Shown in pieces: positions 4,845 to 26,932 of a stretch of DNA of 64,000 nucleotides. The position numbers and the translations under genes were made by a program. The stretch lies in assembly GCF_900129375.1 (NCBI RefSeq), contig NZ_FQVN01000012.1, positions 62,001-126,000 of the forward strand, given 5' to 3'. Under the pieces are notes generated by a model. It was not told the DNA's origin, searched no databases, and saw nothing but the letters and a program-made list of their open reading frames with translations. Position 1 is the first letter of the stretch. Every line of letters begins with the position of its first letter. This DNA comes from Streptoalloteichus hindustanus. GTDB lineage: Bacteria; Actinomycetota; Actinomycetes; Mycobacteriales; Pseudonocardiaceae.

Positions 4845-5066
4845 CTCCCCCTCTGTCGGTGCCCGCCGGGGCGGACGCCTGAGAGCTTCACCCGGGGCAC
4901 CGGGCTTGCACCGTCGGCGGGGCCGGACGGGTCGGCGCACCGACCAGCACGGCCCACTTTCCAGAGGCATCTCGCCCACGCGGTCCTGGCTGCCTGAGAG
5001 GTTCCGGGGAGGAGTTGCTCCTTCGGCGCCGCCCCCGAGCACGCTCGGCGACGGTCTCTCCCGCGT
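4845..5066 (-). promoter_or_regulatory. Tandem glycine riboswitch upstream of gcvP
   Basis: Read on the minus strand, the leader contains two glycine-aptamer cores. The first has GCGGGAGAGACC, then GCCGAAGGAGCAA, then GAACCTCTCAGGCA and CAGGACCGC. The second has GACGGTGCAAGCCC and GAAGCTCTCAGGC. Two cores joined by a short linker is the arrangement known for cooperative glycine sensing. The 3' end lies about 50 nt before the gcvP ATG, so glycine would switch on glycine cleavage. The boundaries are approximate. Confidence 0.92.
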
Positions 5067-5319
5067 GGGGTCTGCGATTACACCGCGCAGAGTACCCCGT
5101 CCGTGCGGGAGCACCGATCAGTCGGGACGAGGAGCCGACTGGACCGTCCGCGCGGGTGGGCGGCGGTCCCCCGGGTGAGGGACGGGCGCGGGGCACGACG
5201 CGGCGACCGGCGCGGGAACGCCGTCGCGCCGGACGCGCGCGTGCGCACCTCGGAGTACCCGTGCGGACAGGGCGAAGACGAACGGAACGGAGACGACAGG
5301 AGGGCGGAACGCCAGGAGC
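5067..5319. other. Intergenic region carrying the gcvP promoter
   Basis: About 250 bp between the MerR gene (stop at 5320) and the 5' end of the glycine riboswitch. The gcvP promoter must lie here on the minus strand, but I could not pick out convincing -35 and -10 hexamers. No further gene is seen. Confidence 0.4.
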
Positions 5320-5883
5320 TCAGCCGGTGCGGCGGGTGCGCCGGCGCCGGGACAGCTCGTCCTCGGGGCGGGGCTCGATCTCCACGCCGTCGGCCCGCTC
5401 GGCGGGGAACTCGTGGATGGTGCCGCTGATCTCCCGCATCGCCCCGCTCACCGCGATGCCGAACACGCCCTGGCCGCCCTGGAGCAGGTCGACGACCTCC
5501 TCCGGCGAGGTGCACTCGTAGACCGTGGTGCCGTCGCTGAACAACGTGATCCTGGCCAGGTCGTGCACGCCCCGACGGCGCAGGTGGTCCACCGCGACCC
5601 GGATGTTCTGCAGCGATACCCCGGTGTCCAGCAACCGTTTGACGACCTTGAGGACCAGGATGTCCTTGAAGGAGTACAGCCGTTGGCTCCCCGAGCCGGA
5701 GGCACTCCTTATCGACGGCAGGACCAGTCCGGTGCGGGCCCAGTAGTCGAGCTGCCGGTAGGTGATGCCGGCGATCTGACAGGCGGCCGGTCCCCGGTAG
5801 CCGACCAGCTCGTCCGGCAGCGAGGCGTCCGGGAACAGCTCGCCCTGCTCGGCGCCGTCCCGGTAGGGCGCTTCCTCGACCAC
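5320..5883 (-). CDS. MerR-family transcriptional regulator (Rv1830-like)
   Basis: 187-aa regulator with an N-terminal MerR winged helix-turn-helix at about residues 27-95 (GITYRQLDYWARTGLV, then RLYSFKDILVLKVVKRLLDTG). It is followed by a helical dimerisation segment and a C-terminal domain of unknown ligand (about 100-170). No cysteine pair of the metal-sensing MerR type is seen in the C-terminal part. Its place between gcvP and the DUF151 nuclease gene is the same as that of Rv1830 in M. tuberculosis. It is preceded by a 473-bp non-coding region with a MerR-type operator candidate, which suggests autoregulation. The tail is basic (SRRRRTRRTG). Confidence 0.9.
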   Translation of the reverse strand: MVEEAPYRDGAEQGELFPDASLPDELVGYRGPAACQIAGITYRQLDYWARTGLVLPSIRSASGSGSQRLYSFKDILVLKVVKRLLDTGVSLQNIRVAVDHLRRRGVHDLARITLFSDGTTVYECTSPEEVVDLLQGGQGVFGIAVSGAMREISGTIHEFPAERADGVEIEPRPEDELSRRRRTRRTG

Positions 5884-6057
5884 GCCTGCCTCCCCTCGCG
5901 GCCACGACGGCCGACGACCGCGGCTGCGCGTTCCGGACCGGACGCGTCACCACCGCCAGAACCCCCCGGTGCGGTGGAATCACACCGGCGCGATTCGCTC
6001 GACTCGACGGTAAGACCGGGGGTGCGGCCGGTCAACGCGACGCGCGGGCGCCGGTGA

Positions 6058-6088
6058 ACATCAATCTCAACTTGAGGGTTAAGGTCAA
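6058..6088 (-). promoter_or_regulatory. Candidate MerR-type operator/promoter
   Basis: On the minus strand a -35-like TTGACC (6083-6088) is followed by 19 nt containing the 11-bp palindrome CTCAACTTGAG (6066-6076) and then a weak -10 (TGATGT). MerR proteins act on promoters with over-long 19-20 bp spacers and an operator inside the spacer. The site is about 175 nt upstream of the MerR gene that starts at 5883. The weak -10 keeps this tentative. The rest of the 5884-6356 region holds no gene that I can support. Confidence 0.35.
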
Positions 6089-6356
6089 CTCGCAGCGTGC
6101 CCGTCCTGCTCCGGTTCACCCACGCCGTGCTGCGGTGATCGGGTGATCATGGACCACGCTCGGGTCACCACGCCGCGGTTTCACTCCTTCTATCCGGCGA
6201 ACTCCCCCGTCAGGCAGGCGACGCGGCTTGGCACGACCCGCCAGGGTCACCACGGGCGCGCGGCGCCCCGCGGGCAGCTCCCGGGCCGGTCCCGAGAACG
6301 CCGACGGCGCCCTCCCCTGGGGGGAGGACGCCGTCGCGCGAGTCGTGTGGGGTGGA

Positions 6357-13897: not shown

Positions 13898-14632
13898 CGT
13901 GACCAGCTCCTTCGGGACCGGCGACACCCGATGAGGAGCGGTCCTGCCAGCCCCAAGTACCCCGTGGGCGGTTCACCACCCGTTCGGCGGCCTGGTTGTC
14001 GGGGTCGTTCTCCCTGGTCATCGTTGGTCGACGACCACGGCCCGGCAAGTTGGAACCGGCGGGATGGCCCGACCCGGGCACGACGGGCCGCGATCAGCGG
14101 GCGGTCACCGCGCGCTTCGACGATCGTGGCGCCCGGTCGCTCCGGTCCCTTCCTTCCCGCTCCGCGAGTACCCCGCGGGACGGGGGTCAACCGAGCCGCC
14201 GCCCGCCGTCCACGAGAGCCGGAGGCCGTCGGCGCGCGCCGCGGCGTCGACATCGCACAGTGCACTGTGGTCGCCCGACCGGGATGTCCGCACCGCACGG
14301 GGAATGTGACCGCCGTCGTGTGAACCAGACCACTGTGGTGGCGAGGTTGGGGTGAACGATTCGCGACAGGAACGGGTTTCCACCACAGAGCGACAATGTT
14401 CACAGCGCGGTTCGATCACATCCGGGTGTTCGGGCCCCTCGACCAGGGGATAGGGTCGACCGGCCATCAGTGGCGAAGAAGGACGTCCGTCGCCGACGGG
14501 CGACGACAGGACTGCCCCCGGACCGGCCCGGGCCGCCCGTCGACGGACCCGCGCCCAGGGCGACACGGACGACTTCGGACGGCAGTGCCCGGACCAGGTT
14601 CAGACCACGCGGATCGAAACGGAGATCTCCCC
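13898..14632. other. Intergenic region with palindromes
   Basis: 735 bp without a supported gene. It holds a perfect 14-bp palindrome CACAGTGCACTGTG (14256-14269) and an 11-bp palindrome ACCACTGTGGT (14329-14339), both sharing the CACTGTG core. They may be operators for the gene that starts at 14633, but no regulator can be assigned. Confidence 0.4.
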
Positions 14633-15361
14633 ATGACGACGACCACGGGACCCATCGCGGCGGCGACCGGCGCCGAGGCTCGATGGTCTCCGTTGGCGGT
14701 CCTCGCCGACGCCGCCGCCCGCGGCGTGGCCGATGGCCAGACCGTCGCCGTGGTCCGCGGCTTCGACCGGGAGAGCCGGCGTCGCGCCCGCACCGTCCGC
14801 GACCACCTCGCCGGCGCCGGCGTGCGCGCGGTCGAGGCCACCCCGGCCCCGGACAGCTGGCCGCTGGGCGAGTCGTCGGCGGTGGGCGCGGTGGTGAACG
14901 TCGCCGGCTCCGGCTCGTGGGACGCCCACCGGATCGCCGCCCAGCTCGCCGCTCCGCTGTACGCGCTGGACGAGACCGGCGCCGACGGGGCCGAGCCCGG
15001 GATCACCGAGCGGCGGATGGACCTGATCGACGTCCGGGGCGAGCGCGGTGATCACGACATCGCGCTGTCGCACGTCACGCTGCTGCCGGAGGACCTCACC
15101 GAGGCCGAGCTGGCGGTCGTGGTGGACGGGACGCGGCACGTCGTGCGGGGCGCCCAGCTCCGCACCGGCCTGCACGAGCACCTGCTCCGGGCGCGGGTCG
15201 TCGGCGAGGGCGCCGAGCACGTCGCCGCCGAGCTGACCGTGGAGCCGGTGGCCGGCGTCTTCCGGCTGGTCCGCGACGGCCTGCCGGTGGACGAGCTGAC
15301 CGCGCCGGTGACCCTGGTCGCCCGGCCCGAGGCGCTGACCGTCCACCTGGTCCGCGCCTGA
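14633..15361 (+). CDS. Hypothetical protein
   Basis: 242 aa, no family recognised. Alternating alpha/beta pattern in the first half (LAVLADAAARGV, VAVVRGFDRESRRRARTVRDHL, VVNVAGSGSWDAHRIAAQLAAPLYAL) followed by a beta-rich second half ending in VTLVARPEALTVHLVRA. No signal peptide or membrane span. The ATG at 14633 follows GGAGATCTCC. A longer in-frame reading back to 14396 has no codon-bias support. The overall layout faintly recalls the lipid/diacylglycerol kinase fold, but the glycine-rich catalytic motif is not visible, so I do not assign it. Confidence 0.65.
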   Translation: MTTTTGPIAAATGAEARWSPLAVLADAAARGVADGQTVAVVRGFDRESRRRARTVRDHLAGAGVRAVEATPAPDSWPLGESSAVGAVVNVAGSGSWDAHRIAAQLAAPLYALDETGADGAEPGITERRMDLIDVRGERGDHDIALSHVTLLPEDLTEAELAVVVDGTRHVVRGAQLRTGLHEHLLRARVVGEGAEHVAAELTVEPVAGVFRLVRDGLPVDELTAPVTLVARPEALTVHLVRA

Positions 15362-15469
15362 CGGTCCGCACCTGACCCGGGGCGGCGCTGCCCCATCCCG
15401 GGGACACCGACACCGGAACCTGGCACCGGGAGCGCTTGTCGCCAGGAATATGCAGTAGGTTCTCCCGAC

Positions 15470-16249
15470 GTGACGACCGCGACCTCCCCGGGCTCCTGGC
15501 TGGACCCGGACCGGGCCCGCGCGTGGGTGCGCCGGTGGGACCGCCAGCAGGAGCGCTACATCGCGGACCGCGAGGAGCGGTTCCAGACCATCGTCGACGT
15601 CGTCGAGCACGTGACGCGGGCCGACGGCGAGCCCGTGGTCCTCGACCTCGGTTGCGGACCCGGCTCGCTGTCGGCCCGCGTGCGTGAGCGGCTCCCGCAC
15701 GCCCGGCTGCTCGGCGTCGACGCCGACCCGCTGCTGCTCGCCATGGCCAGGGCGGCCTACCCCGAGGTCGGCCGGTTCGTCGACGTCGACCTCACCGACG
15801 CCGACTGGTGGCAGGGCCTGGGCGTGGACCGGCCGCTGGACGCGGCGGTCTCCACGACCGCGTTGCACTGGCTGCCCGAGGACGCCCTCGCCCGGCTCTA
15901 CCGGGACCTCGCCGCGCGGCTGCGGCCCGGCGGCGTGTTCGTCAACGGCGACCACCTGTACGACGAGCAGCCGCTGGTCGGCGAGCTCGCCACGGCGGTC
16001 CGACAGCGCCGCGCGGAGCGCGTTGGCGTGCTGGACAACGAGGACTGGGCGGCGTGGTGGTCGGCCGTCGAGGAGGACGAGCGGCTGGCGGACCTGCTGG
16101 AGGAGCGTCGACGACGCGGCCTGGTCGGCGGGGACGGCAACCGGTTGAGCTGCGCGCGGCACGTGACGTTGTTGCGGGAGGCCGGTTTCCGCGCGGCCGC
16201 GCCCGTGTGGCAGGTCGGCGACGACTTCGTGCTCGCCGCCGTGCGCTGA
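15470..16249 (+). CDS. Class I SAM-dependent methyltransferase
   Basis: 259 aa. Rossmann methyltransferase with motif I VLDLGCGPGSLS (about residues 61-72), acidic motif II LLGVDAD (about 83-89), and post-motif WLPEDALARLYRDLAARLRPGG typical of trans-aconitate/small-molecule methyltransferases. GTG start at 15470. The substrate is unknown and the gene stands alone between a hypothetical gene and the cobalamin riboswitch. Confidence 0.85.
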   Translation: MTTATSPGSWLDPDRARAWVRRWDRQQERYIADREERFQTIVDVVEHVTRADGEPVVLDLGCGPGSLSARVRERLPHARLLGVDADPLLLAMARAAYPEVGRFVDVDLTDADWWQGLGVDRPLDAAVSTTALHWLPEDALARLYRDLAARLRPGGVFVNGDHLYDEQPLVGELATAVRQRRAERVGVLDNEDWAAWWSAVEEDERLADLLEERRRRGLVGGDGNRLSCARHVTLLREAGFRAAAPVWQVGDDFVLAAVR

Positions 16250-16368
16250 CGACCGTCCACTGAGGACAGTGGGGCCGGGCGCTTCCCGTGCCGTGTCCCC
16301 ACTTCCCGCCACAGCGTGTTCCCCGACCGTCCGACGGTCGGTAGCGTGCACCGAACCACAACAGAATC

Positions 16369-16469
16369 CGTGTCCCGTGGGGGAAGTCCGGTCCGAATCC
16401 GGCGCTGACCCGCAACGGTGGGTCGCACGAGCGAAGGCGTGCGACGAGCCCGAGTACCCGCGGGACACG
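16369..16469 (+). promoter_or_regulatory. Cobalamin riboswitch
   Basis: Closing stem CGTGTCCCG (16369-16377) with CGGGACACG (16461-16469) is perfect. Between the arms is the conserved core GGGGAAGTCCGGTCCGAATC, then GGCGCTGACCCGCAACGGT (the actinobacterial form of the B12 box), then AGCCCGAGTACCCG. The riboswitch precedes the ABC-uptake operon by about 150 nt; that stretch (16470-16621) is GC-rich with long inverted repeats and probably forms the expression platform. Known members repress corrinoid uptake genes when adenosylcobalamin is plentiful. Confidence 0.9.
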
Positions 16470-16621
16470 TGTCGCTCCACCACCCGTCGAGGTCTGCGGG
16501 ACGGAGCCCCGGGACGGCCACCGCCCCGTCGCCACGCCGCCGGACCCCCGGCACGGGTGGCCGGGGCGTGGACGGGCGATCCGAGGGCAGCCCGCCGGCC
16601 GTTCCCCGGAAGGCCCACCGC

Positions 16622-17752
16622 ATGGCGTCACCGCCCCTGGCCTCCTCGCCGCGGCGCGAGGAGCTGACCCCGCCCGAGCCCGGCGCGTCCGACCCAGGCG
16701 CGTCCGCGTCCCTGCCGCGACGGCGGTCCGTGCTGCCCCTGGTCCTCGCGCTGGCCGTGCTGACGCTCGGCTCGGTGGTGTGCGGTGTGGCGTTCGGCGC
16801 GGTGCAGGTGCCCTTCTCCGACGTGCTGCGCCTCCTGCGCGCGGCGTTCACCGGCGGGTTCATCGAGCCGGCCGACCTGCCGCGGTACCAGATCGTCTGG
16901 CAGATCCGGCTGCCGAGGGTGCTGCTCGCGGTGGTGGTCGGCGCGGGGCTGAGCGCGGTCGGGGTGGCCAGCCAGGCGCTGGTGCGCAACGCGCTGGCCG
17001 ACCCGTTCGTGCTCGGGGTGTCCTCCGGCGCCGCGGTGGGCGCCACCGCCGTGATCACGATGGGCGTGTTCGCCTCGTTCGGCATCCACGCGGTGTCGGT
17101 CGCCGCCTTCCTCGGCGCGTTGCTCGCCACCGCCGTCGTCTACCTGGCGGCGCGGTCGCCCCGGGGGCTCACGCCGCTGCGGCTGGTGCTGACCGGGACG
17201 GCGATGGCCTACGGCTTCACGGCGATCAGCACGGTCCTGGTGTTCTTCGCCGCGCACGGGGAGGCCGCCCGGTCGGCGATGTTCTGGTCCTTCGGCAGCC
17301 TCGGCGGCGCGACCTGGGAGTCGCTGCCGGTGGCCGCCGCCGTGGTCGCGCTGGGCGTCGGCTACCTGCTCGCCTCGGCCCGTCGGCTGAACGCGCTGGC
17401 CATGGGCGACGAGACCGCCGCGACGCTCGGCGTGGACGCCACCCGGATGCGGCGCGAGCTGTTCGTGGTCTCGGCCGCGGTCACCGGGGTGCTGGTGGCG
17501 GTCAGCGGCGCGGTCGGGTTCGTCGGCCTGATGATGCCGCACCTGACGCGCATGCTCGTCGGGGCCGACCACCGCCGGGTGCTCGCGGTCGCCCCGCTGC
17601 TCGGCGGCTGCCTCCTGATCTGGGTCGACCTGGTCGCGCGGACGCTGGTGCCGCCGGAGGAGCTGCCGCTGGGCGTGCTCACCGCCGCGTTCGGCGTGCC
17701 GCTGTTCCTGGTGCTGATGCGGCGGCGCGGCTACGTGTTCGGGGGTCGGTGA
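16622..17752 (+). CDS. btuC: FecCD/BtuC-type ABC permease, corrinoid uptake (predicted)
   Basis: 376-aa inner-membrane permease of the BtuC/FecCD family. About ten TM helices; family signatures RLPRVLLAVVVGAGLSAVG, NALADPFVLGVSSGAAVG, and GFVGLMMPHLTRMLVGADHR (the loop that contacts the ATPase) are clear. The ATG at 16622 follows GGAAGG; the preceding in-frame stretch is the riboswitch expression platform. The stop overlaps the ATPase start by 1 nt. The family also takes up ferric siderophores; the cobalamin riboswitch is what points to corrinoids here. Confidence 0.88.
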   Translation: MASPPLASSPRREELTPPEPGASDPGASASLPRRRSVLPLVLALAVLTLGSVVCGVAFGAVQVPFSDVLRLLRAAFTGGFIEPADLPRYQIVWQIRLPRVLLAVVVGAGLSAVGVASQALVRNALADPFVLGVSSGAAVGATAVITMGVFASFGIHAVSVAAFLGALLATAVVYLAARSPRGLTPLRLVLTGTAMAYGFTAISTVLVFFAAHGEAARSAMFWSFGSLGGATWESLPVAAAVVALGVGYLLASARRLNALAMGDETAATLGVDATRMRRELFVVSAAVTGVLVAVSGAVGFVGLMMPHLTRMLVGADHRRVLAVAPLLGGCLLIWVDLVARTLVPPEELPLGVLTAAFGVPLFLVLMRRRGYVFGGR

Positions 17753-18525
17753 TGGACGTCGAGCTGACCGACGTGACGGTCACCGCGGCCGGTCGCCGCC
17801 TGATCAGCGACCTGCGGCTGCGCGTGCCGTCCGGCGCGGTCGTCGGGCTGGTCGGGCCCAACGGCAGCGGCAAGTCCACGACGTTGCGCTGCGTCTACCG
17901 CGCGCTGCGCCCGTCCGCGGGCCGGGTGCTGCTGGGCGGCGACGACGTGTTCGCGCTGAGCCTGCGGGACAGCGCCCGCCGGCTCGCCGCGCTCACCCAG
18001 GACAGCCACGTGGAGTTCGACTTCACCGTGGCCGAGGTGGTGACCATGGGCCGGTCGCCGCACAAGGGCCTGGTGGGCCCGGACACCGACCAGGACCGGG
18101 AGATCTGCGCGGAGGCGCTGCGCCGGGTCGGCGCGGCGCACCTGGCGGCCCGCAGCTTCCTGACGCTGTCCGGCGGCGAGCGGCAACGCGTGCTCATCGC
18201 CAGGGCGCTGGCCCAGCGGCCGGCGGTGCTCGTCCTCGACGAGCCGACGAACCACCTCGACATCCGGCACCAGTTGGAGGTGCTGGCGCTGGTCCGGCAG
18301 GCGGGCCTGACCGTGTTGGCCGCGCTGCACGACCTCAACCTCGCGGCGGCCGCCTGCGACCGCCTCTACGTGCTGGCCGAGGGCCGGGTGGTGGCCAGCG
18401 GAACCCCCGAGGAGGTCCTCACCCCCGAGGTCGTCGCCGAGGTGTTCGGCGTGCGCGCGCACGTCGTCGCGCACCCCACCTCGGGGGCGCCACAACTGAT
18501 CTTCGACGCCCCGCTCCCCCGGTGA
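17752..18525 (+). CDS. btuD: ABC transporter ATPase, corrinoid uptake (predicted)
   Basis: 257 aa. Walker A GPNGSGKST (about residues 37-45), signature LSGGERQR (about 139-146), Walker B VLVLDEPTNHLD (about 157-168), and switch His in ALHDLNLA. It powers the FecCD permease encoded upstream (1-nt overlap). The C-terminal region (VAEVFGVRAHVV) is typical of the FepC/BtuD group. Start ATG overlaps the permease TGA. Confidence 0.93.
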   Translation: MDVELTDVTVTAAGRRLISDLRLRVPSGAVVGLVGPNGSGKSTTLRCVYRALRPSAGRVLLGGDDVFALSLRDSARRLAALTQDSHVEFDFTVAEVVTMGRSPHKGLVGPDTDQDREICAEALRRVGAAHLAARSFLTLSGGERQRVLIARALAQRPAVLVLDEPTNHLDIRHQLEVLALVRQAGLTVLAALHDLNLAAAACDRLYVLAEGRVVASGTPEEVLTPEVVAEVFGVRAHVVAHPTSGAPQLIFDAPLPR

Positions 18526-18557
18526 GCTCCCCCGTCCCGTCCCCGAGAGGTGCCCGC

Positions 18558-19637
18558 ATGTCACGACGTCTTCCCCCCGGTCCCGCCCGCCGTCCAGTCC
18601 CCCGGACCTCCCGCTGGACCTCCCGTCGGATCTCCCGTCGGCTGACCCTGATCACCGCCGCCGCCACGGCGCTGGCGCTCACCGCGGGCTGCGGCGCCCA
18701 GGTCCGCCAGGGGCCGGAGGGCTCGGCCGCCGCCGGGTACCCGGTGACGGTCGAGAACTGCGGCCAGAAGGTCACCTACGACCGCGCGCCGAGCCGGCCG
18801 GTCGCCTACGACGTCGGCATCATCGAGACGATGTTCGCCCTCGGCCTGCGCGAGAAGCTGGCCGGCTACGTGCTCGGGCGCGGGCACAGCGTCGCCGACT
18901 CCCCGTGGAAGGACGACTTCGAGAAGGCGCACCGCCTGGCGGCCGACCGACCGAGCAAGGAGCTCATCCTGGAGGCGAAGGCGGACTTCGTCTACGCCGG
19001 GTGGAACTACGGGTTCCGCGAGGGCAGCGGCCTGACCCCGCAGGACCTGGAGCAGGTGGGCGTGCGCAGCTACGTGCTGACCGAGTCCTGCCGCAACGGC
19101 GTCTCCGACCGCAGCCGGGGCGTGGTGCCCCCGCTGGAGGCGCTCTACACCGACCTGCGCAACCTCGGCCGGATCTTCGGGGTGTCCGAGAGGGCCGAGG
19201 AGCTGGTGCGGCGCTACCAGGCCCAGGTGGCGGCGGTGGAGGCGTCGATCCCGAAGGACCGCCCCCGGCCGAAGGTGTTCGTCTACGACTCCGGCACCGA
19301 CAAGCCGTTCACCACGGGCCGGTTCGCCGCGGCCCACGAGATCATCACCCGCGCCGGCGGGGACCACGTGTTCGCCGACATGCGGGACAGTTGGATCCAG
19401 GTCGGCTGGGAATCGGTTGTCCAGGCGAATCCGGACATCATCGTCATCAACGATTACGGCGAGCAGAGCGCGGCGGAGAAGCAGGCTTTCCTGGAGTCCT
19501 ACGCGCCGTTGGCCAACGTCAACGCGGTGAAGAACAAGCGGTTCTTCACGCTGCCGTACGCCGCGTTGGTGGAGGGGCCGCGCAATCCGGCGGCGATCGA
19601 GTCTTTCTCCGGGTACCTGCGCGGGCTGCCCGGCTGA
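18558..19637 (+). CDS. btuF: Substrate-binding lipoprotein, corrinoid uptake (predicted)
   Basis: 359-aa extracytoplasmic solute-binding protein. An Arg-rich N-terminus with a hydrophobic stretch ends in the lipobox LTAGC (about residue 44), so it is exported and lipidated. The rest is the two-lobed helical-backbone fold of FepB/BtuF proteins (PSRPVAYDVGIIETMFALGL, then VFVYDSGTDKPF, then NPDIIVINDYGEQ). The ATG at 18558 follows GAGAGG; a GTG at 18522 overlapping the ATPase stop is an alternative. A strong terminator closes the operon 28 bp downstream. Confidence 0.87.
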   Translation: MSRRLPPGPARRPVPRTSRWTSRRISRRLTLITAAATALALTAGCGAQVRQGPEGSAAAGYPVTVENCGQKVTYDRAPSRPVAYDVGIIETMFALGLREKLAGYVLGRGHSVADSPWKDDFEKAHRLAADRPSKELILEAKADFVYAGWNYGFREGSGLTPQDLEQVGVRSYVLTESCRNGVSDRSRGVVPPLEALYTDLRNLGRIFGVSERAEELVRRYQAQVAAVEASIPKDRPRPKVFVYDSGTDKPFTTGRFAAAHEIITRAGGDHVFADMRDSWIQVGWESVVQANPDIIVINDYGEQSAAEKQAFLESYAPLANVNAVKNKRFFTLPYAALVEGPRNPAAIESFSGYLRGLPG

Positions 19638-19664
19638 GAGGACGCGCCCGACACATACCCCACA

Positions 19665-19702
19665 GTGTGCGCCAGGGCAGCAGAACGTGCCCTGGCGCAC
19701 AC
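19665..19702 (+). terminator. Strong intrinsic terminator
   Basis: GTGTGCGCCAGGGCA (19665-19679) pairs perfectly with 19688-19702 around an 8-nt loop, and one further A-T pair extends the stem. TTGTCACTTT follows. It separates the cobalamin uptake operon from the threonine-kinase operon. Confidence 0.85.
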
Positions 19703-19927
19703 TTGTCACTTTCGGTCGCGGAGCGTTCCCACATTCGGCCTATTGACCCGTCAACCACCGGGCAAGACGATGTTGTCACGACATCCGGACGCGCCGACGT
19801 GCGCGCACGCCAACCACGACAACGGTTTCGCGCGCACGTCGTGCTCATCACACAAAGAAATCTGGGGGAATTCTGCCGTGGGCGGTGACCTCGTCCGTGA
19901 GTTCGTCCTGAGCGGTCCGGGAGAGAG

Positions 19928-20863
19928 ATGACGACCATTCCGACCCTCGCGGCCAGAGCCCGGCCGAAGGTGCACTCCGGGGTCTGCCAGGGCACCCTGG
20001 GCGAGCTCTTCCAGGGCCCCTTCCGGCGCGGCGACCGCTCCGAGATCGCGATCGTCTCGCTGCCCGTCGACCGGTTCAGCTGGGTCTACTTCACCGAGGA
20101 CGACGGCGTCCGCACCGGCGGAGACCGCGCCAACGGGGCGGGGGCCGACCTGGCCGCCGCGGGCCGGAGCAAGTCGCAGCGCGCCGTCGAGTTCTTCCTC
20201 GACCACTTCGGGCTGCGGCTGCCCCCCGGCCGGTGGGACTTCCACACCGAGCTGGCCGTCGGCGCCGGGATGGCCAGCTCCACCGCGGACGTGGTCGCGA
20301 CGCTGCGCTGCCTGTTCCGGCTGTTCGACCTGGCCTACGACCAGCGCCTGGTGCGGGCCGCCCTGGCCGGCATCGAACGCGCGGACAGCGTCTTCCTCGA
20401 CGAGTTCGCGCTCTACCTCAGCGGCCGGCACGAGGTCGTGCACCACTTCGGCGACCACGTCGGCCTCTACACCTGCTACACCACCGAGGACGGCTCGGTG
20501 GACACCGAGGACCTCGGCGACGAGCTGCTCGCCCACTACGGGCGGCACGCCGCGGCCTACGAGGACTGCCTCGGCGAGCTGGTCGCCGCCTTCCGGGTCG
20601 GCGACGTCGGCGCGCTCGGCAGGAGCTCGACCCGCAGCGCCGAGCTCGGCCAGCTCGTCGTGCCCAAGCGCCACTTCGACGAGGTGCGGGCCAACCAGCG
20701 GACGTTCCTGGCGGACGGAATCTTCGTGGCCCACACCGGCAGCATCATCGGTTACCTGTTCCGGGAACGACCCGACAGATCCCGGATGGACGACCTTTCC
20801 GCGTTCTTTCGCGAGCTCGGCCAACAGTGCCACTTCGCCCGAGGAGGCTGGCGGGATGTTTGA
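19928..20863 (+). CDS. GHMP-family kinase, PduX-like L-threonine kinase
   Basis: 311 aa. PduX-type N-terminal signature GTLGELFQG (residues 22-30) and GHMP motif 2 VGAGMASSTAD (111-121), which holds the ATP phosphates. PduX phosphorylates free L-threonine to O-phospho-L-threonine, normally for the aminopropanol arm of cobalamin. Here the partner gene is a fold-II PLP enzyme rather than CobD, so the phosphothreonine is more likely a building block for the following ligases. ATG at 19928 after GGGAGAGAG. A -35-like TTGACC inside the palindrome TTGACCCGTCAA (19743-19754) may mark the promoter. It overlaps the next gene by 8 nt. Related substrates such as serine cannot be excluded. Confidence 0.8.
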   Translation: MTTIPTLAARARPKVHSGVCQGTLGELFQGPFRRGDRSEIAIVSLPVDRFSWVYFTEDDGVRTGGDRANGAGADLAAAGRSKSQRAVEFFLDHFGLRLPPGRWDFHTELAVGAGMASSTADVVATLRCLFRLFDLAYDQRLVRAALAGIERADSVFLDEFALYLSGRHEVVHHFGDHVGLYTCYTTEDGSVDTEDLGDELLAHYGRHAAAYEDCLGELVAAFRVGDVGALGRSSTRSAELGQLVVPKRHFDEVRANQRTFLADGIFVAHTGSIIGYLFRERPDRSRMDDLSAFFRELGQQCHFARGGWRDV

Positions 20864-21995
20864 CCACATCGCCGACGCCATCAAGATTCCGGACATCGTG
20901 CGGCTCACCGACAACGTGTTCGTCGCGCGGTTCGAGACGATGAAGGTCTATTCCGCGCTCGCGGCGGTCCGCCACTTATTGGAGACCGGCAGGGTGCGTC
21001 GGGGCGACACGCTCATCGACAGTTCCAGCGGTATCTACGCGTACGCGTTGGCGATGGCCTGCCACAAATACGGGATGAAGTGCCGCATCGTCGGTTCGAC
21101 GACGGTCGACCGGACGCTGCGGACCCAGCTGGAGATCCTGGGCGCGACGGTGGAACAGGTACGCCCGTCGGCCAGCCTGAAACTCGACCAGAAACAACGC
21201 GTCGAGCGCATCCAACAGATCCTGCGCGACAGCGAGGCGAACCCCGGCGACGGCGCGGTTTACTGGATGCAGCAGTACCACAACGACATCCACTACCTCG
21301 GCTACCGCGAGTTCGCGGACATCGTGCGCCGGGAGATCGGCGGCCGCCGGCTGACCGTGGTCGGCGGCGTGGGCTCCGGCGCCTCGACCGGCGGCCTGGT
21401 CACCGCGCTGCGCGAGACCGACCCCGGCGTGCGGCTCGTGGGCATCCAGCCGTTCGGCAGCGTGACCTTCGGCAGCGAGCACATCGAGGACCCCGACGTC
21501 ATCATCGCGGGCATCGGCAGCTCGATCCCGTTCCGCAACGTGCGGCACGAGCTGTACGACACGATGCACTGGGTGAGCTTCGACCACGCCCGCGCGGCCA
21601 GCGTCGAGCTGCTCCGCCGGCACGCGATCTTCGCCGGGCTGTCCACCGGGTGCGGCTACCTGGTGACCCGGTGGGAGGCCGCCCACCACCCGGAGCGGAA
21701 CCACCTGTTCATCGCCGCCGACACCGGCCACCGCTACCTGGACCAGGTCTTCGCCGGGCACGAGGACGCCCTGTCGCTGGACGGCCTGGCCCCCCGGCGG
21801 GTGTCGAGCCTGGCCGAGCTGGCGTTCCCGTGGTCGGTCATGGCGTGGAACCGCCGGCCCTTCGCCGCGGCGCCCGACGGCGACGCCGACACCAACGCCG
21901 ACGCCGACGGCCCGGCCGCCGCCAACGGGGCCGCCCACGCGGGGGCCGCCGCGCGCAGCGAGATCAACGGAATCATGGAGGAGACAGTCCGGTGA
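20856..21995 (+). CDS. Fold-type II PLP enzyme (cysteine-synthase-like, beta-replacement)
   Basis: 379 aa. The PLP lysine is probably Lys30 in FETMKVYSAL. The substrate-carboxylate loop reads DSSSGIYAYAL instead of the TSGNTG of cysteine synthases, and the PLP-phosphate loop is GGVGSGASTGG. The altered substrate loop suggests a substrate other than O-acetylserine; O-phosphothreonine from the kinase encoded upstream is the natural candidate. Expected chemistry is elimination of phosphate and beta-addition of a nucleophile, for example giving a 2,3-diaminobutyrate or its Glu adduct, as SbnA does with phosphoserine. The last 45 residues are an Ala/Asp/Asn-rich tail. ATG at 20856 overlaps the kinase gene; the stop overlaps the next start by 3 nt. 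Confidence 0.85.
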   Translation: MFDHIADAIKIPDIVRLTDNVFVARFETMKVYSALAAVRHLLETGRVRRGDTLIDSSSGIYAYALAMACHKYGMKCRIVGSTTVDRTLRTQLEILGATVEQVRPSASLKLDQKQRVERIQQILRDSEANPGDGAVYWMQQYHNDIHYLGYREFADIVRREIGGRRLTVVGGVGSGASTGGLVTALRETDPGVRLVGIQPFGSVTFGSEHIEDPDVIIAGIGSSIPFRNVRHELYDTMHWVSFDHARAASVELLRRHAIFAGLSTGCGYLVTRWEAAHHPERNHLFIAADTGHRYLDQVFAGHEDALSLDGLAPRRVSSLAELAFPWSVMAWNRRPFAAAPDGDADTNADADGPAAANGAAHAGAAARSEINGIMEETVR

Positions 21996-23251
21996 CGCTG
22001 GTTTCCCTGGAGGCGCTCACGTTCGGCCTCGGCCGGCTGGTCGACGCGGTCCGCGCCCGCGACCACCGGCTGCGGTTGCTCACCTGCGGCCGCGACGTCT
22101 ACCGGTACGAGCTGGACCGGCTGGCGGCCGACCCCTCGGCGCCGCTGGACGTGGTCGACGTCGACACCTTCGACACCGACGCGGTGCGGCGCGCGCTGGC
22201 CGAGGTGCCCGACCTGCGCGGGCTGATCAGCTCGACCGACACCTGGAGCCTGGTGGCGCTGGACCTGCTGGCGGAGCTGGGCCTGCCCGGGCCCGCGCCG
22301 GCCGCGGTCCGCCTGGTGCGCGACAAGGCCCGGCTGCGCGACCACCTGCACCGCGCCGGCCTCAGCCGGGGCGCCAGCCACGCCTTCGACCCGGCCACGA
22401 CCACGGCCGCCGAGCTGGCGCCGCGCGTCAGCTACCCGGCGATCGTGAAGGACACCGCGGGCACCGGCAGCCAGAACGTCTGGCTGCTCGGCGGGCCCGA
22501 GGACCTGGACGACGTGCTGGCCGCCGGGCGGGCGGCGCGGCTGCGCGGCGCGCTGCTCGTCGAGCCGTACTTCGCCGGCCCGCTCTTCAGCGCCGAGACG
22601 CTGACCTGGGACGGCGAGACGCGCCTGCTGGGTGTCTCCAGCCGGGGCCTGTCGGCCGAGCCGCACTTCCGCGAGGAGTCGCTGTCCTTCCCGGTGGCGT
22701 TCCCGCCGGAGCGGGCCGCCGAGCTGGCCGACTGGATCACCCGGGTGCTGGCCGCCGTCGGCTTCGACGACGGCTTCGCGCACACCGAGTTCGTCCTGAC
22801 CGCCGACGGCCCCGAGGTCGTGGAGATCAACCCCCGGCTGGGCGGCGCGCTGGTGGGCGAGGCGGTGAGCCGCTCGCTGGAGCTCAACATCTACGACGCC
22901 TTCGTCGACCTGGCCCTCGGCCGGCGGCCGGCGCTGATGGACGCGCCGCTCAAGCCCGTCCGGGGCGTGGCGCAGGTGCTGCTGTACGCCGACCGGGTCG
23001 GGACGTTCCGCGGCGTCGACGGGCTGGACCGGCTGCCGGGGCACCCCGGCTCGCCCGCCCTGCTGCCCACGGCCGCCGAGGGGCGGCGGGTGGAGCACCT
23101 GACCGACCAGCGGGGTTCGGTGGGGATCGTGCTGGCCGAGGGCGAGACGGCCGAGCTGGCCCTGCACAACGTCCTGTCCGCGGCCGGCAAGCTGCGGGTG
23201 CGCGTGACCGGCGCCGAGGCCGACACCGAAGGGGAGCCCGAGCGTGGCTGA
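21992..23251 (+). CDS. ATP-grasp ligase 1
   Basis: 419-aa ATP-grasp enzyme, predicted carboxylate-amine ligase. Pre-ATP-grasp Rossmann-like part in residues 1-110. ATP-binding lysine in YPAIVKDTAGTGSQNVWLL and the metal-binding motif VEINPRLGGALVGEA are intact. The C-terminal lobe resembles BacD-type L-amino-acid ligases. The GTG start at 21992 overlaps the stop of the PLP gene (GTGA). It probably joins the PLP-enzyme product to a second amino acid by way of an acyl phosphate. The substrates cannot be read from the sequence. Confidence 0.87.
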   Translation: MTLVSLEALTFGLGRLVDAVRARDHRLRLLTCGRDVYRYELDRLAADPSAPLDVVDVDTFDTDAVRRALAEVPDLRGLISSTDTWSLVALDLLAELGLPGPAPAAVRLVRDKARLRDHLHRAGLSRGASHAFDPATTTAAELAPRVSYPAIVKDTAGTGSQNVWLLGGPEDLDDVLAAGRAARLRGALLVEPYFAGPLFSAETLTWDGETRLLGVSSRGLSAEPHFREESLSFPVAFPPERAAELADWITRVLAAVGFDDGFAHTEFVLTADGPEVVEINPRLGGALVGEAVSRSLELNIYDAFVDLALGRRPALMDAPLKPVRGVAQVLLYADRVGTFRGVDGLDRLPGHPGSPALLPTAAEGRRVEHLTDQRGSVGIVLAEGETAELALHNVLSAAGKLRVRVTGAEADTEGEPERG

Positions 23252-24482
23252 GCCGCACCTGGTGGTGGTGGGCGGTTGGACCGAGGTCATCGCGAAGGCG
23301 GTCGACGCCGGCTTCGCGGTGAGCTACCTCGGCCCGACCGCCGCCGGCGGCGGGCTGGACCCGGCCGTGCTGGAGCGCTGCGCCTCGGTGCACGAGGTCG
23401 CGGTCGACCAGGTGACCGTGTGCCTCGCGCTGGCCCGCCGGCTGCACGCCGAGCGGCCGGTCACGGCGGTGGCCTCGTTCACCGAGCTGGGGCTGGAGAG
23501 CGCCGCGGTGATCGCCGACGCGCTCGGCGTGCCCGGGCCCGAGCTGTGGCCGGTCGCGGTGACCCGGCACAAGGACTGGACGCGGCGGGTGCTGGCCGGG
23601 GTGCCGTCCCTGGCCCTGCCGTGGCGGCTGGTCGCCACCCCCGCCGACGTCGAGCGCTTCCACGCCGAGCACGGCCCGGCGATCATCGTGAAGCCGGTGG
23701 CCGGCGCGGCGAGCGTGGGCGTCCGGCAGATCCGCTCGGCTGAGGAGCTGGCCGCGGCCATGGCCAGCCCCGGCTGGCTGCGGGACGGCCAGTACGTGGC
23801 GGAGAAACTGGTCGACAGCGACGAGCTGTACAGCGTGGAGTCGCTCACCCTGAACGGCGAGCACTCCGTGATCACCTTCTCCTACACCAAACTCGTCGGC
23901 TACCCGTACTCGCTCGGCAGCTACACGATGGTGCCGCCGCCGCCCGGGTTCGAGCGGGTGCGGGACGAGGTGGTCCGGACGGCGCGGGAGTTCCTGACCG
24001 CGATCGGCATGACCTGGGGCGTCGCGCACACCGAGATCAAGGTCGGGCCGGACGGCCGGCCCGGGGTGATCGAGTCGCAGACCAGGGTGGGCGGGGACCG
24101 CATCTGGCTGATGACCGAGCGGACGACCGGCGTCGGCCAGATCGACCTCGCGCTGCGCGGCCTGGTCGACCCCGCGGTCACCGCCCCGCACCTTCCGGAC
24201 AGCGACCGCGTGGGCGTGTTCCTCCCGTTCCTGCCCCCCGCGGGCACGGTGCGGCGGGTCGCCGACATCGCGGACGTGCGCCGGCTGCCGGGAGTGCTGG
24301 ACGCCGACACCAACCTGACGCCGGGCCGGGTGCTCAAGGAGATCACCGACAACACGCAGCGGGGCGGGTACGCCCTGCTGGACGCGCCGGACCACGACGC
24401 GGCGTACGCGCTGATGCGCGAGGTCGGCCGCGCCTTCTGGGTGGAGTTCGATGACGGTCGCCTCTGGCATCCCGGGTTCTGA
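23244..24482 (+). CDS. ATP-grasp ligase 2
   Basis: 412-aa ATP-grasp enzyme of the same class, but not a recent duplicate of the first. ATP-lysine in PAIIVKPVAGAASVGV; adenine-loop glutamate in QYVAEKLV; metal motif VIESQTRVGGDRIW, where the usual Asn of E-x-N is Gln. That change is conservative, and the rest of the site looks complete, so I expect activity. GTG start at 23244 overlaps the upstream gene by 8 nt, and the stop lies 32 nt inside the MFS gene. Two ligases suggest a tripeptide or a dipeptide with a capped side chain. Confidence 0.86.
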   Translation: MAEPHLVVVGGWTEVIAKAVDAGFAVSYLGPTAAGGGLDPAVLERCASVHEVAVDQVTVCLALARRLHAERPVTAVASFTELGLESAAVIADALGVPGPELWPVAVTRHKDWTRRVLAGVPSLALPWRLVATPADVERFHAEHGPAIIVKPVAGAASVGVRQIRSAEELAAAMASPGWLRDGQYVAEKLVDSDELYSVESLTLNGEHSVITFSYTKLVGYPYSLGSYTMVPPPPGFERVRDEVVRTAREFLTAIGMTWGVAHTEIKVGPDGRPGVIESQTRVGGDRIWLMTERTTGVGQIDLALRGLVDPAVTAPHLPDSDRVGVFLPFLPPAGTVRRVADIADVRRLPGVLDADTNLTPGRVLKEITDNTQRGGYALLDAPDHDAAYALMREVGRAFWVEFDDGRLWHPGF

Positions 24483-25680
24483 GTCGACGCGGCGACCGCG
24501 CCTGCCGCCCGGGCTGCGGTTCCTGATCGCCAGCTCGTTCCTGATCCCGTTCGGCAGCTTCATGGTGCTGCCGTTCATGTCGATCTTCCTGCACCAGCGG
24601 CTCGGCATGTCGTTGGGCTGGGTCGGGTTCGTGCTCGCCGCCGCCTCGCTCATCCAGTTCTCCGGGGGCGTGGTCGGCGGCGCGGTCGCCGAGCGGCTCG
24701 GGCTCAAGCGCACGATGGTGCTCGCGCTGGTCGTGCGCACGGCCGGGTTCGCGTTGTTCGTCGCCGCCATGGCCTGGTCCGCCGCCGCGGTGCCCGCGCT
24801 CCTGCTCACGGCGTGCGGCGCGGCGCTGTACCTCCCGGCGAACAAGGCCTACATCGTCCGGAGCACCGACGAGGAGCGGAAACCGCTGTTCCTGTCGGTC
24901 AGCAACTCCGCGCTCAACGCCGGCATGGCGTTGGGACCGCTGGTGGCCGGGTTGCTCATCCTGGACGCGCCGTTGCTCGTCTTCGGCGTCACCACCGGCA
25001 TCTTCGTGGTGATGACCGTCTGCCACGTCGTCGTGCTCGCCGGCGAGCCGGCGGCGGATGAGCCCGAGGCGTCCGGGGACGGCGGGTCGGCGGCCGACGC
25101 GCCGCCCGGGGCGAAGGTTCTGCTGGCGGCGGCGGGCCGTTCGGCGCTCACGGCGCCGTTCCTGGTCAACGCGTTGACCATCTACGTCTACATGTTCTTC
25201 CAGAACTACATGGGAGTCTTCACGGCGGCGCACCACTCGCCGGAGGTCTACAGCCTGCTCCTGCTGGTCAACGCCGGCGGCGTGATCCTGCTGCAACCGT
25301 TGGCGGCCAAGGCGATCGGGAAGCTGTCCTACCGGTGGGCGATCGCGGTCTCCTTCGCGGCGTTCGGCTGCGGGATGGCGGTGCTGGCGCAGGCCGGGCT
25401 GGTGGCCGTGTTCCTGGGAACCGCGCTCATCACGCTCGGCGAGGTGGTGCTGTTCCTGAAGAACGAGCTGGCGGCGCTGGAGCGGTCGCCGGACCGGCCG
25501 GCGCTGGCCTTCGGCCAACAACGCCTCGCCGCCGGCGTCGGCGCCTTCGTCAGCGGCGTCGTCGGGGGGCAGCTCTACGAGCTGGCCGTGGCCGGCGGCG
25601 GCGACCGGTGGTTCTGGGTGGTCTGCGCCGCGCAGTGCGGCCTCGTCGCGCTCGTCGGCGGGCTCCTGGTCCGGCGATGA
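24451..25680 (+). CDS. MFS transporter, probable exporter of the ATP-grasp peptide
   Basis: 409 aa with about 12 TM helices and the TM2-TM3 loop AERLGLKRTMV. ATG start at 24451, 32 nt inside the preceding ligase gene, so strictly part of the operon. A hydrophilic central loop (about 200-228, Ala/Asp/Glu/Gly-rich) separates the two six-helix halves. An exporter placed last in a small peptide operon usually gives export and self-protection. Confidence 0.85.
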   Translation: MTVASGIPGSESTRRPRLPPGLRFLIASSFLIPFGSFMVLPFMSIFLHQRLGMSLGWVGFVLAAASLIQFSGGVVGGAVAERLGLKRTMVLALVVRTAGFALFVAAMAWSAAAVPALLLTACGAALYLPANKAYIVRSTDEERKPLFLSVSNSALNAGMALGPLVAGLLILDAPLLVFGVTTGIFVVMTVCHVVVLAGEPAADEPEASGDGGSAADAPPGAKVLLAAAGRSALTAPFLVNALTIYVYMFFQNYMGVFTAAHHSPEVYSLLLLVNAGGVILLQPLAAKAIGKLSYRWAIAVSFAAFGCGMAVLAQAGLVAVFLGTALITLGEVVLFLKNELAALERSPDRPALAFGQQRLAAGVGAFVSGVVGGQLYELAVAGGGDRWFWVVCAAQCGLVALVGGLLVRR

Positions 25681-25808
25681 GGCGGCAGAACACCTTGTGG
25701 GCCAAGGCTTTCGGTCCCCCGGTGAGTCAGTCCGACGCCGAGCCCGCCGGCGGCGCCGGATCTGACACTGTGACGACCACTGGGGCCGACCGCTGGGGGC
25801 CGACGTGC

Positions 25809-25856
25809 CGGGGCCCGGCGTGGTGGACGCGGCGCGTCCCACCAGGCCGGGCCCCG
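25809..25856. terminator. Bidirectional terminator hairpin
   Basis: CGGGGCCCGGC (25809-25819) pairs perfectly with 25846-25856; an inner TGGTGG/CCACCA stem extends it. It sits between the convergent MFS and DUF397 genes. Confidence 0.7.
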
Positions 25857-25865
25857 ACTCGTCCG

Positions 25866-26078
25866 TCAGCCCAGGTCCAACTGTCCACTTCGGACGGTTC
25901 GGACGAAGGACGCCCACTCACACCGCGCGAACAACAGCGCGGGTCCGGTGGGGTTCTTCGAGTCCCGCACGGCGGCGACGGTCGGGAAGTCCGCCACCTC
26001 CACGCAGTTGTTGGCGCCGCTCGTGTAGCTGGACGTGCGCCAGGACGCACCGGTCAGGGACGGGGCCGGGACCCACAT
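25866..26078 (-). CDS. DUF397 domain protein
   Basis: 70-aa DUF397 protein: W-RTSSYTSGANNCVEV at the start, VRDSKNPTGPAL in the middle. ATG at 26078 with AAGGAG 8 nt upstream, which lies in the end of the XRE gene, so the pair is co-translated. DUF397 genes paired with XRE/DUF5753 regulators are common in actinomycetes (the WhiJ-like systems that affect development and antibiotic production). Confidence 0.9.
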   Translation of the reverse strand: MWVPAPSLTGASWRTSSYTSGANNCVEVADFPTVAAVRDSKNPTGPALLFARCEWASFVRTVRSGQLDLG

Positions 26079-26083
26079 TTGAT

Positions 26084-26932
26084 CTACTCCTTGTCGAGTT
26101 CCGCGAGATGCCGGTCGATCATGGCCAACGACTCGAACTCGCCGAGCGCGGCCACGCGCAACCGGTCGAACGCCAGCCGGAACGCCTTCGTGTGCTGCGG
26201 GCGCGTGAGGTAGTCCGCGCCCGTCAGGCTCTCCACGTAGACGATCGTGGCCCCCGCCCTCTCGAACGAGAGCAGGGTGAACGGCGCGCCGAGCGCGACG
26301 TGCGCGCCACTGGCCAGCGGCATGATCTGGATGGTGACGTTGGTCAGCGCGGCGAGCTGACGCAGGTGGCAGAGCTGGCCGCGCAGGATCTTGGGGCCGC
26401 CGATCCGTCGGAGCAGCGCCTCCTCGCCGAACACCGCCCACACCCTGGGGGCGTCCGATGAGGACAGACGTTGGGAGCGACGGGCTCTGGCCTCGGCCAT
26501 CCGGTCGATCTCGGCGGGGGCGACCACGACCGACATGGACAGCATCGCCCTGGCGTACTCCGGTGTCTGGAACGGCCCGGGGATGAACTCCCCGTAGAAG
26601 ATCTCCATCTCGTCGGCGCTGGATTCCAGGCTGACGAACTGCTTCGCCCAGTCGGGCACCCTCGCCGGCGGGTTCTTCCGCCGGGACTCCTTCGCGAGCT
26701 TGCGCACCTGTCTGGCCTCGGCTGAGCCGACCCGGTAGAGCTCAAGCAGTCGCTCGACCTCGGCGTCGGTGACCCGCACCGCGCCGGTCTCGACCTTGCT
26801 GATCTTCGCCCGGTACCACTCGAGCTTGCGTGCGGCGTCCTCGGCGGCGATGCCCGCCGCCTCCCGGAGCACCCGCAGTCGCTCGCCCAACAGAAGCCGC
26901 TGCACCGCGGGACCGGGGCTCGTTGCCGCCAT
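26084..26932 (-). CDS. XRE-family regulator with DUF5753
   Basis: 282 aa. N-terminal XRE helix-turn-helix at about 14-70 (LGERLRVLREAAGIAAEDAA, then WYRAKISKVETGAV). DUF5753 occupies about 95-275 (FIPGPFQTPEYARAML, IMPLASGAHVALGAPFTLL, YVESLTGADYLTRP). It forms the regulator half of the WhiJ-type pair with the DUF397 gene. It is divergent from the hypothetical gene at 27082. Confidence 0.93.
   Translation of the reverse strand: MAATSPGPAVQRLLLGERLRVLREAAGIAAEDAARKLEWYRAKISKVETGAVRVTDAEVERLLELYRVGSAEARQVRKLAKESRRKNPPARVPDWAKQFVSLESSADEMEIFYGEFIPGPFQTPEYARAMLSMSVVVAPAEIDRMAEARARRSQRLSSSDAPRVWAVFGEEALLRRIGGPKILRGQLCHLRQLAALTNVTIQIMPLASGAHVALGAPFTLLSFERAGATIVYVESLTGADYLTRPQHTKAFRLAFDRLRVAALGEFESLAMIDRHLAELDKE

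Follow-up and report, generated by a model that had tools for sequence, protein, structure and literature searches.

A kinase, PLP enzyme and ATP-grasp operon of Streptoalloteichus hindustanus as a candidate metallophore locus beside a cobalamin riboswitch

The closest described counterparts of the five-gene operon treated here, which occupies positions 19928–25680 of a 64,000-nucleotide stretch of the Streptoalloteichus hindustanus genome (contig NZ_FQVN01000012.1, positions 62,001 to 126,000; hereafter the window), include systems for small chelators. Aminopolycarboxylic-acid metallophores such as EDDS and EDHA (AesA-D; an antiSMASH class) are small amino-acid-derived chelators built around a pyridoxal phosphate (PLP) enzyme of the cysteine synthase/SbnA kind (PMC10320115, PMC10920908, PMC10486106, PMC13206832, PMC11888242, PMC8914351, PMC10702961, PMC6103462). 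The gene set of such clusters includes an SbnB-like ornithine cyclodeaminase and a PLP decarboxylase (PMC13206832), and EDDS is under Zur control (PMC6103462). In a 2010 structure report, the only pertinent paper that the literature search gave on DUF364 (PF04016), the DUF364 protein Dhaf4260 is predicted to act in metal-chelator chemistry (siderophore, pterin or flavin type) beside ABC transporters (PMC2954201).

The window operon encodes a GHMP kinase, a fold-II PLP enzyme, two ATP-grasp ligases and a major facilitator superfamily (MFS) exporter, and upstream of it lie a cobalamin riboswitch and an importer made of a FecCD permease, an ATP-binding cassette (ABC) ATPase and a substrate-binding protein (SBP) (Table 1). 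It has the SbnA-like core in common with the EDDS/EDHA clusters, but differs from them in the kinase and the two ATP-grasps, in having a riboswitch instead of Zur control (the DUF364 loci described below appear to be Zur-controlled like EDDS), and in that no ornithine cyclodeaminase or PLP decarboxylase is found among the ten proteins scanned (14633–25680). A kinase and a cysteine-synthase-like PLP enzyme also occur together in friulimicin DabABC and pacidamycin Pac17, 2,3-diaminobutyrate pathways that end in an ArgH-like lyase and feed a nonribosomal peptide synthetase (NRPS); neither lyase nor NRPS was found at the window locus. SbnA replaces the phosphate of O-phosphoserine by an amino acid, so that phosphoserine and glutamate give N-(1-amino-1-carboxy-2-ethyl)-glutamate. 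SbnA, a staphyloferrin B precursor enzyme, and CmnB, both of 2,3-diaminopropionate synthesis, are among the nearest PDB relatives of the window PLP enzyme and have the motif W..Q(Y/F).N in common with it, but no SbnB partner was found in the ten proteins. The L-amino-acid ligases BL00235 and BacD have the ATP-grasp_4 plus LAL_C2 architecture of the window ligases and are their best PDB matches (BL00235 for ATP-grasp 1); the importer and riboswitch context sets the window apart from them.

A sequence-only reading of the operon had proposed that phosphothreonine is turned into a beta-substituted aminobutyrate (such as 2,3-diaminobutyrate), coupled twice and exported as a peptide. The gene identities of that picture hold up and its order of steps, ending in export, is a natural one, but it passed over the importer, the cobalamin riboswitch and the Zur-type sister loci, which together point to a metallophore and not merely an exported peptide. 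We propose, at a probability of about one half, that the operon is the biosynthesis and export half of an aminopolycarboxylate-like pseudopeptide metallophore, that the adjacent importer retrieves the metal complex, and that the metal is probably cobalt. There is good evidence from gene context and regulation for a metallophore system of new make-up. Importer and exporter adjoin the biosynthetic genes in the window; among the relatives, not all loci have the pair.

The operon itself is tightly knit. Its five open reading frames (ORFs) overlap by 8, 4, 8 and 32 nt from 5' to 3' (the overlap of 3–32 nt given by the sequence-only reading was right except for its lower limit), and the ORF coordinates together with the Pfam matches of all five proteins, each above the gathering score, confirm the gene identities. 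In Streptoalloteichus tenebrarius (L039) the five genes recur with identical overlaps and 87–90% protein identity; dN between the two species is 0.06–0.09 and dS 0.26–0.33 (dN/dS approximately 0.2–0.3). Given the identical overlaps, the arrangement is, on the sequences compared, more than chance.

The window PLP enzyme served as bait for the family searches. At E <= 1e-30, 136 of the 297 genomes in the window's own family gave a match (distant relatives included). At E <= 1e-80 there were matches in 7 of 396 genomes from the whole phylum and in 119 of the 392 that belong to genus g53, taken to be Streptomyces because the locus of one member (G920) is 99–100% identical to that of S. clavifer. 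Matches also came from 11 named loci, among them ones in Massilia, Sphingomonas and Streptomyces, and from 56 plasmid records at E <= 1e-20. We compared 117 plus 60 loci: 7 of the 11 named loci (the near-copies L041, L043, L046 and L048 being omitted), 10 of the 56 plasmid regions, 100 own-family loci (98 of them strong matches; L050, at the same place as L039, and weaker or lower-ranked matches were omitted) and 60 mostly top-scoring Streptomyces loci of those in the 119 genomes. In the pair L041 and L042, the “Bacillus sp. 2B10” locus is laid out like the Sphingomonas one, possibly reflecting a mislabelled or contaminated assembly. The 172 loci (112 plus 60) with at least 50% PLP identity form the core; L068, L069, L077, L078 and L079 fell below this and were dropped.

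Around the PLP gene, in variable order and with varying membership, stand the FecCD/ABC/SBP importer, an MFS protein, a S-adenosylmethionine (SAM) methyltransferase, a GHMP kinase, and DUF364 or an ATP-grasp. The last two are almost mutually exclusive: 97 core loci have DUF364 only, 69 have ATP-grasp only, three (in Massilia and Sphingomonas) have both and three neither. Pfam describes DUF364 as “putative heavy-metal chelation”, and it marks a sister clade of the window; the window locus itself has no DUF364 match, with an ATP-grasp in its place. An ATP-grasp directly behind the PLP gene is a recurrent partner (69 + 3 of 172 loci), while a second one follows in only four: the window, L039 (89% identical), L074 and L075 (about 44%). 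The complete kinase-PLP-ATP-grasp-ATP-grasp-MFS set, for which the sequence-only reading had suggested a neighbourhood search, exists in exact order in just two of the 172, the window and L039, both of one genus. An MFS match lies near 77 of 112 loci (22 + 49 + 3 + 3 over the four types; 7.5 kb upstream, 4.5 kb downstream); in the Streptomyces-like set, 59 of 60 loci have one nearby. Two variants deserve mention. In Massilia rubra (L040 11027–13102) ATP-grasp and DUF364 are fused in one protein of 691 amino acids, a Rosetta-stone link between the two partners. In Streptomyces xanthii (L074 7805–8944) a 379 amino acid protein replaces the kinase before PLP-ATP-grasp-ATP-grasp-MFS; this upstream ORF has no Pfam match in L074 or L075 and hence was not counted as a kinase.

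Regulation separates the two partner types. Zur-box-like sites, with at most 3 mismatches to TGAAAATNATTTTCA and no further than 500 nt from the start of a matched gene, occur in 73 of the 97 DUF364-only loci (40/53 plus 33/44) versus 1 of the 69 ATP-grasp-only loci (1/53 plus 0/16; Fisher p-value 1e-24, kinship ignored). At 2 mismatches or fewer, 34 sites were observed versus 0.33 expected from mononucleotide shuffles of the 117 loci compared first. To judge by these sites, the sister DUF364 branch looks Zur-controlled and zincophore-like, with zinc as its likely metal. IdeR and Nur boxes gave only scattered weak matches, among them one IdeR-like site before an ABC gene in L056, and were set aside.

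The kinase plus ATP-grasp loci are accompanied by cobalamin riboswitches. The window and 45 further loci were scanned with Rfam (14 of 16 kinase plus ATP-grasp loci, 12 of 53 other ATP-grasp loci, 18 of 97 DUF364 loci, 2 of 3 with both partners and 0 of 3 with neither), and all loci were searched on both strands with a core riboswitch pattern, which at up to 3 errors recovers 33 of 36 known riboswitches (at 4 errors all 36, with many spurious matches). A riboswitch is present in 14 of the 16 kinase plus ATP-grasp loci: the window, L039 (35.3 bits with RF00174), L071 and all 11 such Streptomyces loci in the compared set. In the window, where it scores above gathering, and in L039 it precedes the importer and not the five genes; in the other 12 the next matched gene is the kinase. 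Ten of these 12 are confirmed by Rfam (L071 at 63.9 bits and nine Streptomyces loci at 46.5–84.2 bits), and for L246 and L256 the evidence is the core pattern. In seven of the nine Streptomyces loci a second riboswitch flanks the operon on its other side, followed in six (L221, L223, L227, L235, L239, L252) by SBP, FecCD and ABC matches. Among the 53 ATP-grasp loci without kinase, L126 and L133 carry a riboswitch (36.7 bits) before a same-strand SBP-FecCD-ABC-PLP-ATP-grasp run. No riboswitch was found immediately ahead of the PLP operon in DUF364-only loci (18/97 by Rfam, the remainder by pattern). The pattern match at L119 and several others (3 errors or fewer), L206, L231, L232 and L255 among them, look spurious, and those at L203 and L222 are located away from the PLP operon. 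The riboswitch loci known when the PLP tree was built (FastTree, the first 117 loci, long branches flagged) occupy three places in it, window/L039, L071 and L126/L133. We regard cobalt as probable because relatives of the kinase/ATP-grasp branch are associated with cobalamin riboswitches.

In the locus of Streptomyces clavifer (L071), the region 4874–6226 (minus strand) has a further cobalamin riboswitch before a gene annotated as a 2Fe-2S ferredoxin, which has no Pfam match, and a gene for an FhuF_C-domain protein. Proteins with this domain are of the kind that reduces ferric siderophores, and the two genes possibly encode a chelate reductase under B12 control.

Several observations weigh against a cobalt metallophore under B12 control. 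An alternative that draws on a number of them holds that the product serves another metal (iron, nickel or zinc), the riboswitch governing only the adjacent importer or being a relic. In the window, importer and kinase gene are 290 nt apart, with a strong hairpin between them. The hairpin is conserved in L039 (z -4.7, by folding and alignment) and may end the importer transcript, so that the five genes may be transcribed from a promoter of their own; no riboswitch was detected ahead of the kinase, and an E-value search of 14000–26500 gave no further one. The five window genes may nonetheless be B12-responsive themselves. Rfam gave no riboswitch at the kinase plus ATP-grasp loci L062 and L121, and for 51 of the 53 kinase-less ATP-grasp loci the scans gave none either (12/53 examined by Rfam, all by core pattern). 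In 22 ATP-grasp loci among L086–L146, all without kinase and without a riboswitch found, a block GGGAAC-N17-CGAC resembling a promoter for an extracytoplasmic function (ECF) sigma factor precedes a methyltransferase gene, itself before the importer. The sister clade looks controlled by Zur, but 24 of the 97 DUF364-type loci have no Zur-like site, and all locus counts ignore relatedness. In the PLP tree the DUF364 rows group together, with 2 label changes of which one comes from a long-branched outlier. The ATP-grasp rows do not form one clade: window/L039 and L074/L075 diverge ahead of the main split, which brings the number of changes to 6. Finally, the cobalt importer CbiM is usually present: among the Streptomyces genomes, 10 of the 11 of riboswitch type have it, as do 9 of the 10 of DUF364 type and all 20 that gave no PLP match. 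What speaks against another metal is the riboswitch before the kinase gene in 12 of the 16 kinase plus ATP-grasp loci, and we consider this alternative unlikely, though worth keeping in view.

We looked for the cobalt carriers CbiM, CbtA and NicO in 26 genomes, and for CbiM in 41 Streptomyces-like genomes. CobN is present in all 26, which are thus probably B12 makers and need cobalt, the metal required for B12 synthesis. Two riboswitch-type genomes (G142, G267) have none of the three carriers, and each of the seven genomes of this set that gave no PLP match at 1e-30 has one or more. On the other side, in G000 a NicO stands behind a riboswitch of its own, and G128, G185 and G160 lack all three carriers yet have no riboswitch-type locus. 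The loss of cobalt importers is suggestive for G142 and G267 but not clean, and we do not use it as a main argument: cobalt is favoured because of the riboswitch and not because of missing carriers. In G001 a cobalamin riboswitch stands before a sub-threshold NicO with an internal TGA (C3:226639–227419), possibly a decayed Ni/Co carrier and the only match to any of the three in that genome.

A different use of the riboswitch would be cobalamin assembly or salvage. PduX makes O-phosphothreonine for the aminopropanol linker of cobalamin, so that a PduX-like kinase could feed the linker and the transporter could be BtuFCD; the FecCD-type permease does score 223 bits with the BtuC model (cut-off 461). 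The SBP points elsewhere. It reaches 171.8 bits with the F420-0 model (cut-off 392), 104 with EitA and 43.7 with BtuF (cut-off 234), and in all five SBPs scored (window, L227, L133, L053, L072) the F420-0 or EitA siderophore models come top with BtuF far lower, every score being below its curated cut-off. The window permease and ATPase are approximately 62% and the SBP approximately 47% identical to the importers of 12 Zur/DUF-type loci, with a second DUF364 group (42–48%) and L126/L133 (about 30%) more distant. From this likeness and the SBP scores, the importer looks chelate-type and common to both branches rather than cobalamin-type. Furthermore, the PLP enzyme has the fold-II type of SbnA and not that of CobD, the riboswitch loci L126 and L133 have no kinase match, and the ATP-grasps and exporter would be left unexplained. 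The sequence-only reading had held that consistent occurrence with cobD and cobalamin genes would tell against its peptide. CobN, the only such gene checked (cobD was not searched), is either on a different contig or at a distance of 145 kb or more in all 19 genomes with a strong PLP locus; the ATP-grasp subtype, on the other hand, does go with cobalamin riboswitches. On the kinase-less loci, the fold-II enzyme and the distant CobN of these 19 genomes we rejected cobalamin assembly as the principal explanation and consider it very improbable. The riboswitch before the biosynthesis and export operon in Streptomyces would also suit a molecule induced by B12 starvation for some other role, such as scavenging corrinoids or inhibiting rivals that depend on B12. 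Both the importer type, common with Zur-type loci, and the sister clade with DUF364 speak for a metal chelate, which makes such a role quite improbable too.

The PLP enzyme, the hub of the family, bears on the chemistry. Its best NCBIfam model is TIGR03945 SbnA at 134 bits, below the cut-off of 350, and SbnA is its nearest solved relative by profile and by fold (best Foldseek matches 5d84–5d87, at 23–25% identity); in a single-sequence search SbnA ranks alongside CmnB and a cystathionine beta-synthase. By alignment to SbnA the Schiff-base lysine, K30, is kept, but only a short stretch, RFETMK, leads up to it and DSSSGIYA takes the place of the TSGN motif, which bears out the altered substrate loop of the sequence-only reading. 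In 39 aligned sequences, the window included, R25-F26-E27, K30 and D55-G59 are invariant, and the altered loops are largely so across the family. Judged by score and loops, the enzyme is not an SbnA equivalog. An order of kinase, beta-replacing PLP enzyme, ATP-grasp coupling and export is a natural one. The free 2,3-diaminobutyrate of the sequence-only reading is not supported, since none of the 172 core loci shows a homologue of the ArgH-like lyases of L078 and L079. These two distant relatives, which carry a Lyase_1 domain, do resemble the known 2,3-diaminobutyrate pathways: L078 (5962–10731), on a conjugative Mesorhizobium plasmid, has a kinase-like gene, a PLP enzyme and an ATP-grasp/ArgH fusion. 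Further rhizobial plasmids also carry PLP relatives.

The absence of such a lyase matters as well for the idea that the product is an exported bioactive peptide derived from phosphothreonine, an antibiotic or a signal. L-amino-acid ligases with an MFS pump recall the logic of bacilysin and dapdiamide, and L079 has a kinase/PLP/ATP-grasp/ArgH/MFS set beside an NRPS. The core loci, however, have no ArgH-like match, and the relatives carry importers, DUF364 and Zur-like sites; the NCBIfam-type models DdaF (14 bits) and BacD (19 bits) stay far under their cut-offs. We consider a bioactive peptide improbable.

The kinase is a GHMP kinase by Pfam. Its PduX-like label, as given by the sequence-only reading, is putative and based on motifs; there is no PduX entry among its PDB matches. 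For its AlphaFold model (predicted local distance difference test, pLDDT, 86) the nearest folds are IspE and mevalonate and homoserine kinases. The nearest curated models are likewise mevalonate and homoserine kinase, both far below their cut-offs. In its own genome the protein matches only itself at E <= 0.01. It is 23–31% identical to the aligned kinases of DUF364 loci, three of which are 39–45% identical to the kinase of L079, where it adjoins the ArgH-like gene of the NRPS cluster. The window kinase is a putative amino-acid kinase, for threonine or serine.

For the proposed metallophore, these parts would combine as follows. The kinase would phosphorylate threonine (or serine). In the manner of SbnA, the PLP enzyme would eliminate the phosphate and add the amine of a second amino acid, giving an N-substituted 2,3-diamino acid. 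The ten proteins scanned include no SbnB-, decarboxylase- or ArgH-like one, so this second amino acid should stay in place as a metal-binding arm. ATP-grasp 1 and then ATP-grasp 2 would form amide bonds to further amino acids, the MFS pump would send the product out, and the metal complex would re-enter through the FecCD/ABC/SBP importer. The phosphothreonine chemistry, like each enzymatic step, is predicted from these resemblances, and cobalt is our best single guess for the metal. A more specific version is attractive but tentative: a dedicated cobaltophore, that is, a riboswitch-controlled, ATP-grasp-built chelator for B12 shortage that arose from or beside the Zur zincophore family, ATP-grasp taking the place of DUF364 and the cobalamin riboswitch that of Zur. 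The literature searched, with preprint servers and most subscription journals outside it, contains neither “cobaltophore” nor “cobalophore”, nothing that brings cobalt, metallophore and cobalamin riboswitch together, and nothing that joins three of phosphothreonine, cysteine synthase, ATP-grasp and biosynthetic gene cluster.

Table 1. Coordinates of the operon and its upstream neighbours in the window.
Feature	Coordinates	Strand	Details
Putative protein beside methyltransferase, membership uncertain	14633..15361	+	Start arbitrary; 79% identical in L039
SAM methyltransferase, possible accessory	15470..16249	+	PF13649; homologue (57%) adjoins L099 locus
Cobalamin riboswitch before importer	16358..16479	+	RF00174, 42.5 bits (gathering 31.5)
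FecCD-type permease	16616..17752	+	PF01032; start inferred, ORF open from 16418
Importer ABC ATPase	17749..18525	+	PF00005
Importer SBP	18522..19637	+	PF01497 (Peripla_BP_2); start uncertain
Strong hairpin at importer/five-gene boundary	19662..19706	+	-35.7 kcal/mol, z -6.5; terminator-like without U tract
GHMP kinase (putatively PduX-like, by motifs)	19928..20863	+	311 aa; PF00288 GHMP_kinases_N
SbnA-like fold-II PLP enzyme, family hub	20856..21995	+	379 aa; PF00291 PALP
ATP-grasp 1, L-amino-acid-ligase type	21992..23251	+	GTG start; 419 aa; PF13535 ATP-grasp_4 + PF18603 LAL_C2
ATP-grasp 2, L-amino-acid-ligase type, rare extra ligase	23244..24482	+	GTG start; 412 aa; PF18603 + PF13535
MFS exporter	24451..25680	+	409 aa; PF07690 MFS_1

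The first protein of Table 1 has no Pfam or NCBIfam match at E <= 0.1. The genome of the window has six cobalamin riboswitches, and the window also contains a glycine riboswitch at 4971–5073 on the minus strand (RF00504, 61.8 bits).

To our knowledge, little is known about how B12-making bacteria acquire cobalt beyond their membrane carriers. At least four genomes hold both locus types (G064 with L057/L058, G142 with L126/L114, G213 with L096/L136, G259 with L117/L149), and in G142 the family offers a riboswitch-type (L126) and a DUF364-type (L114) locus as a pair within one genome. With matches in 119 of 392 Streptomyces genomes and in 136 of the 297 from the window's family, the PLP family is a common one. 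If the proposal is true, it would suggest a function and a partner for DUF364, and its riboswitch-controlled members would represent a dedicated bacterial cobalt scavenger for times of B12 shortage.

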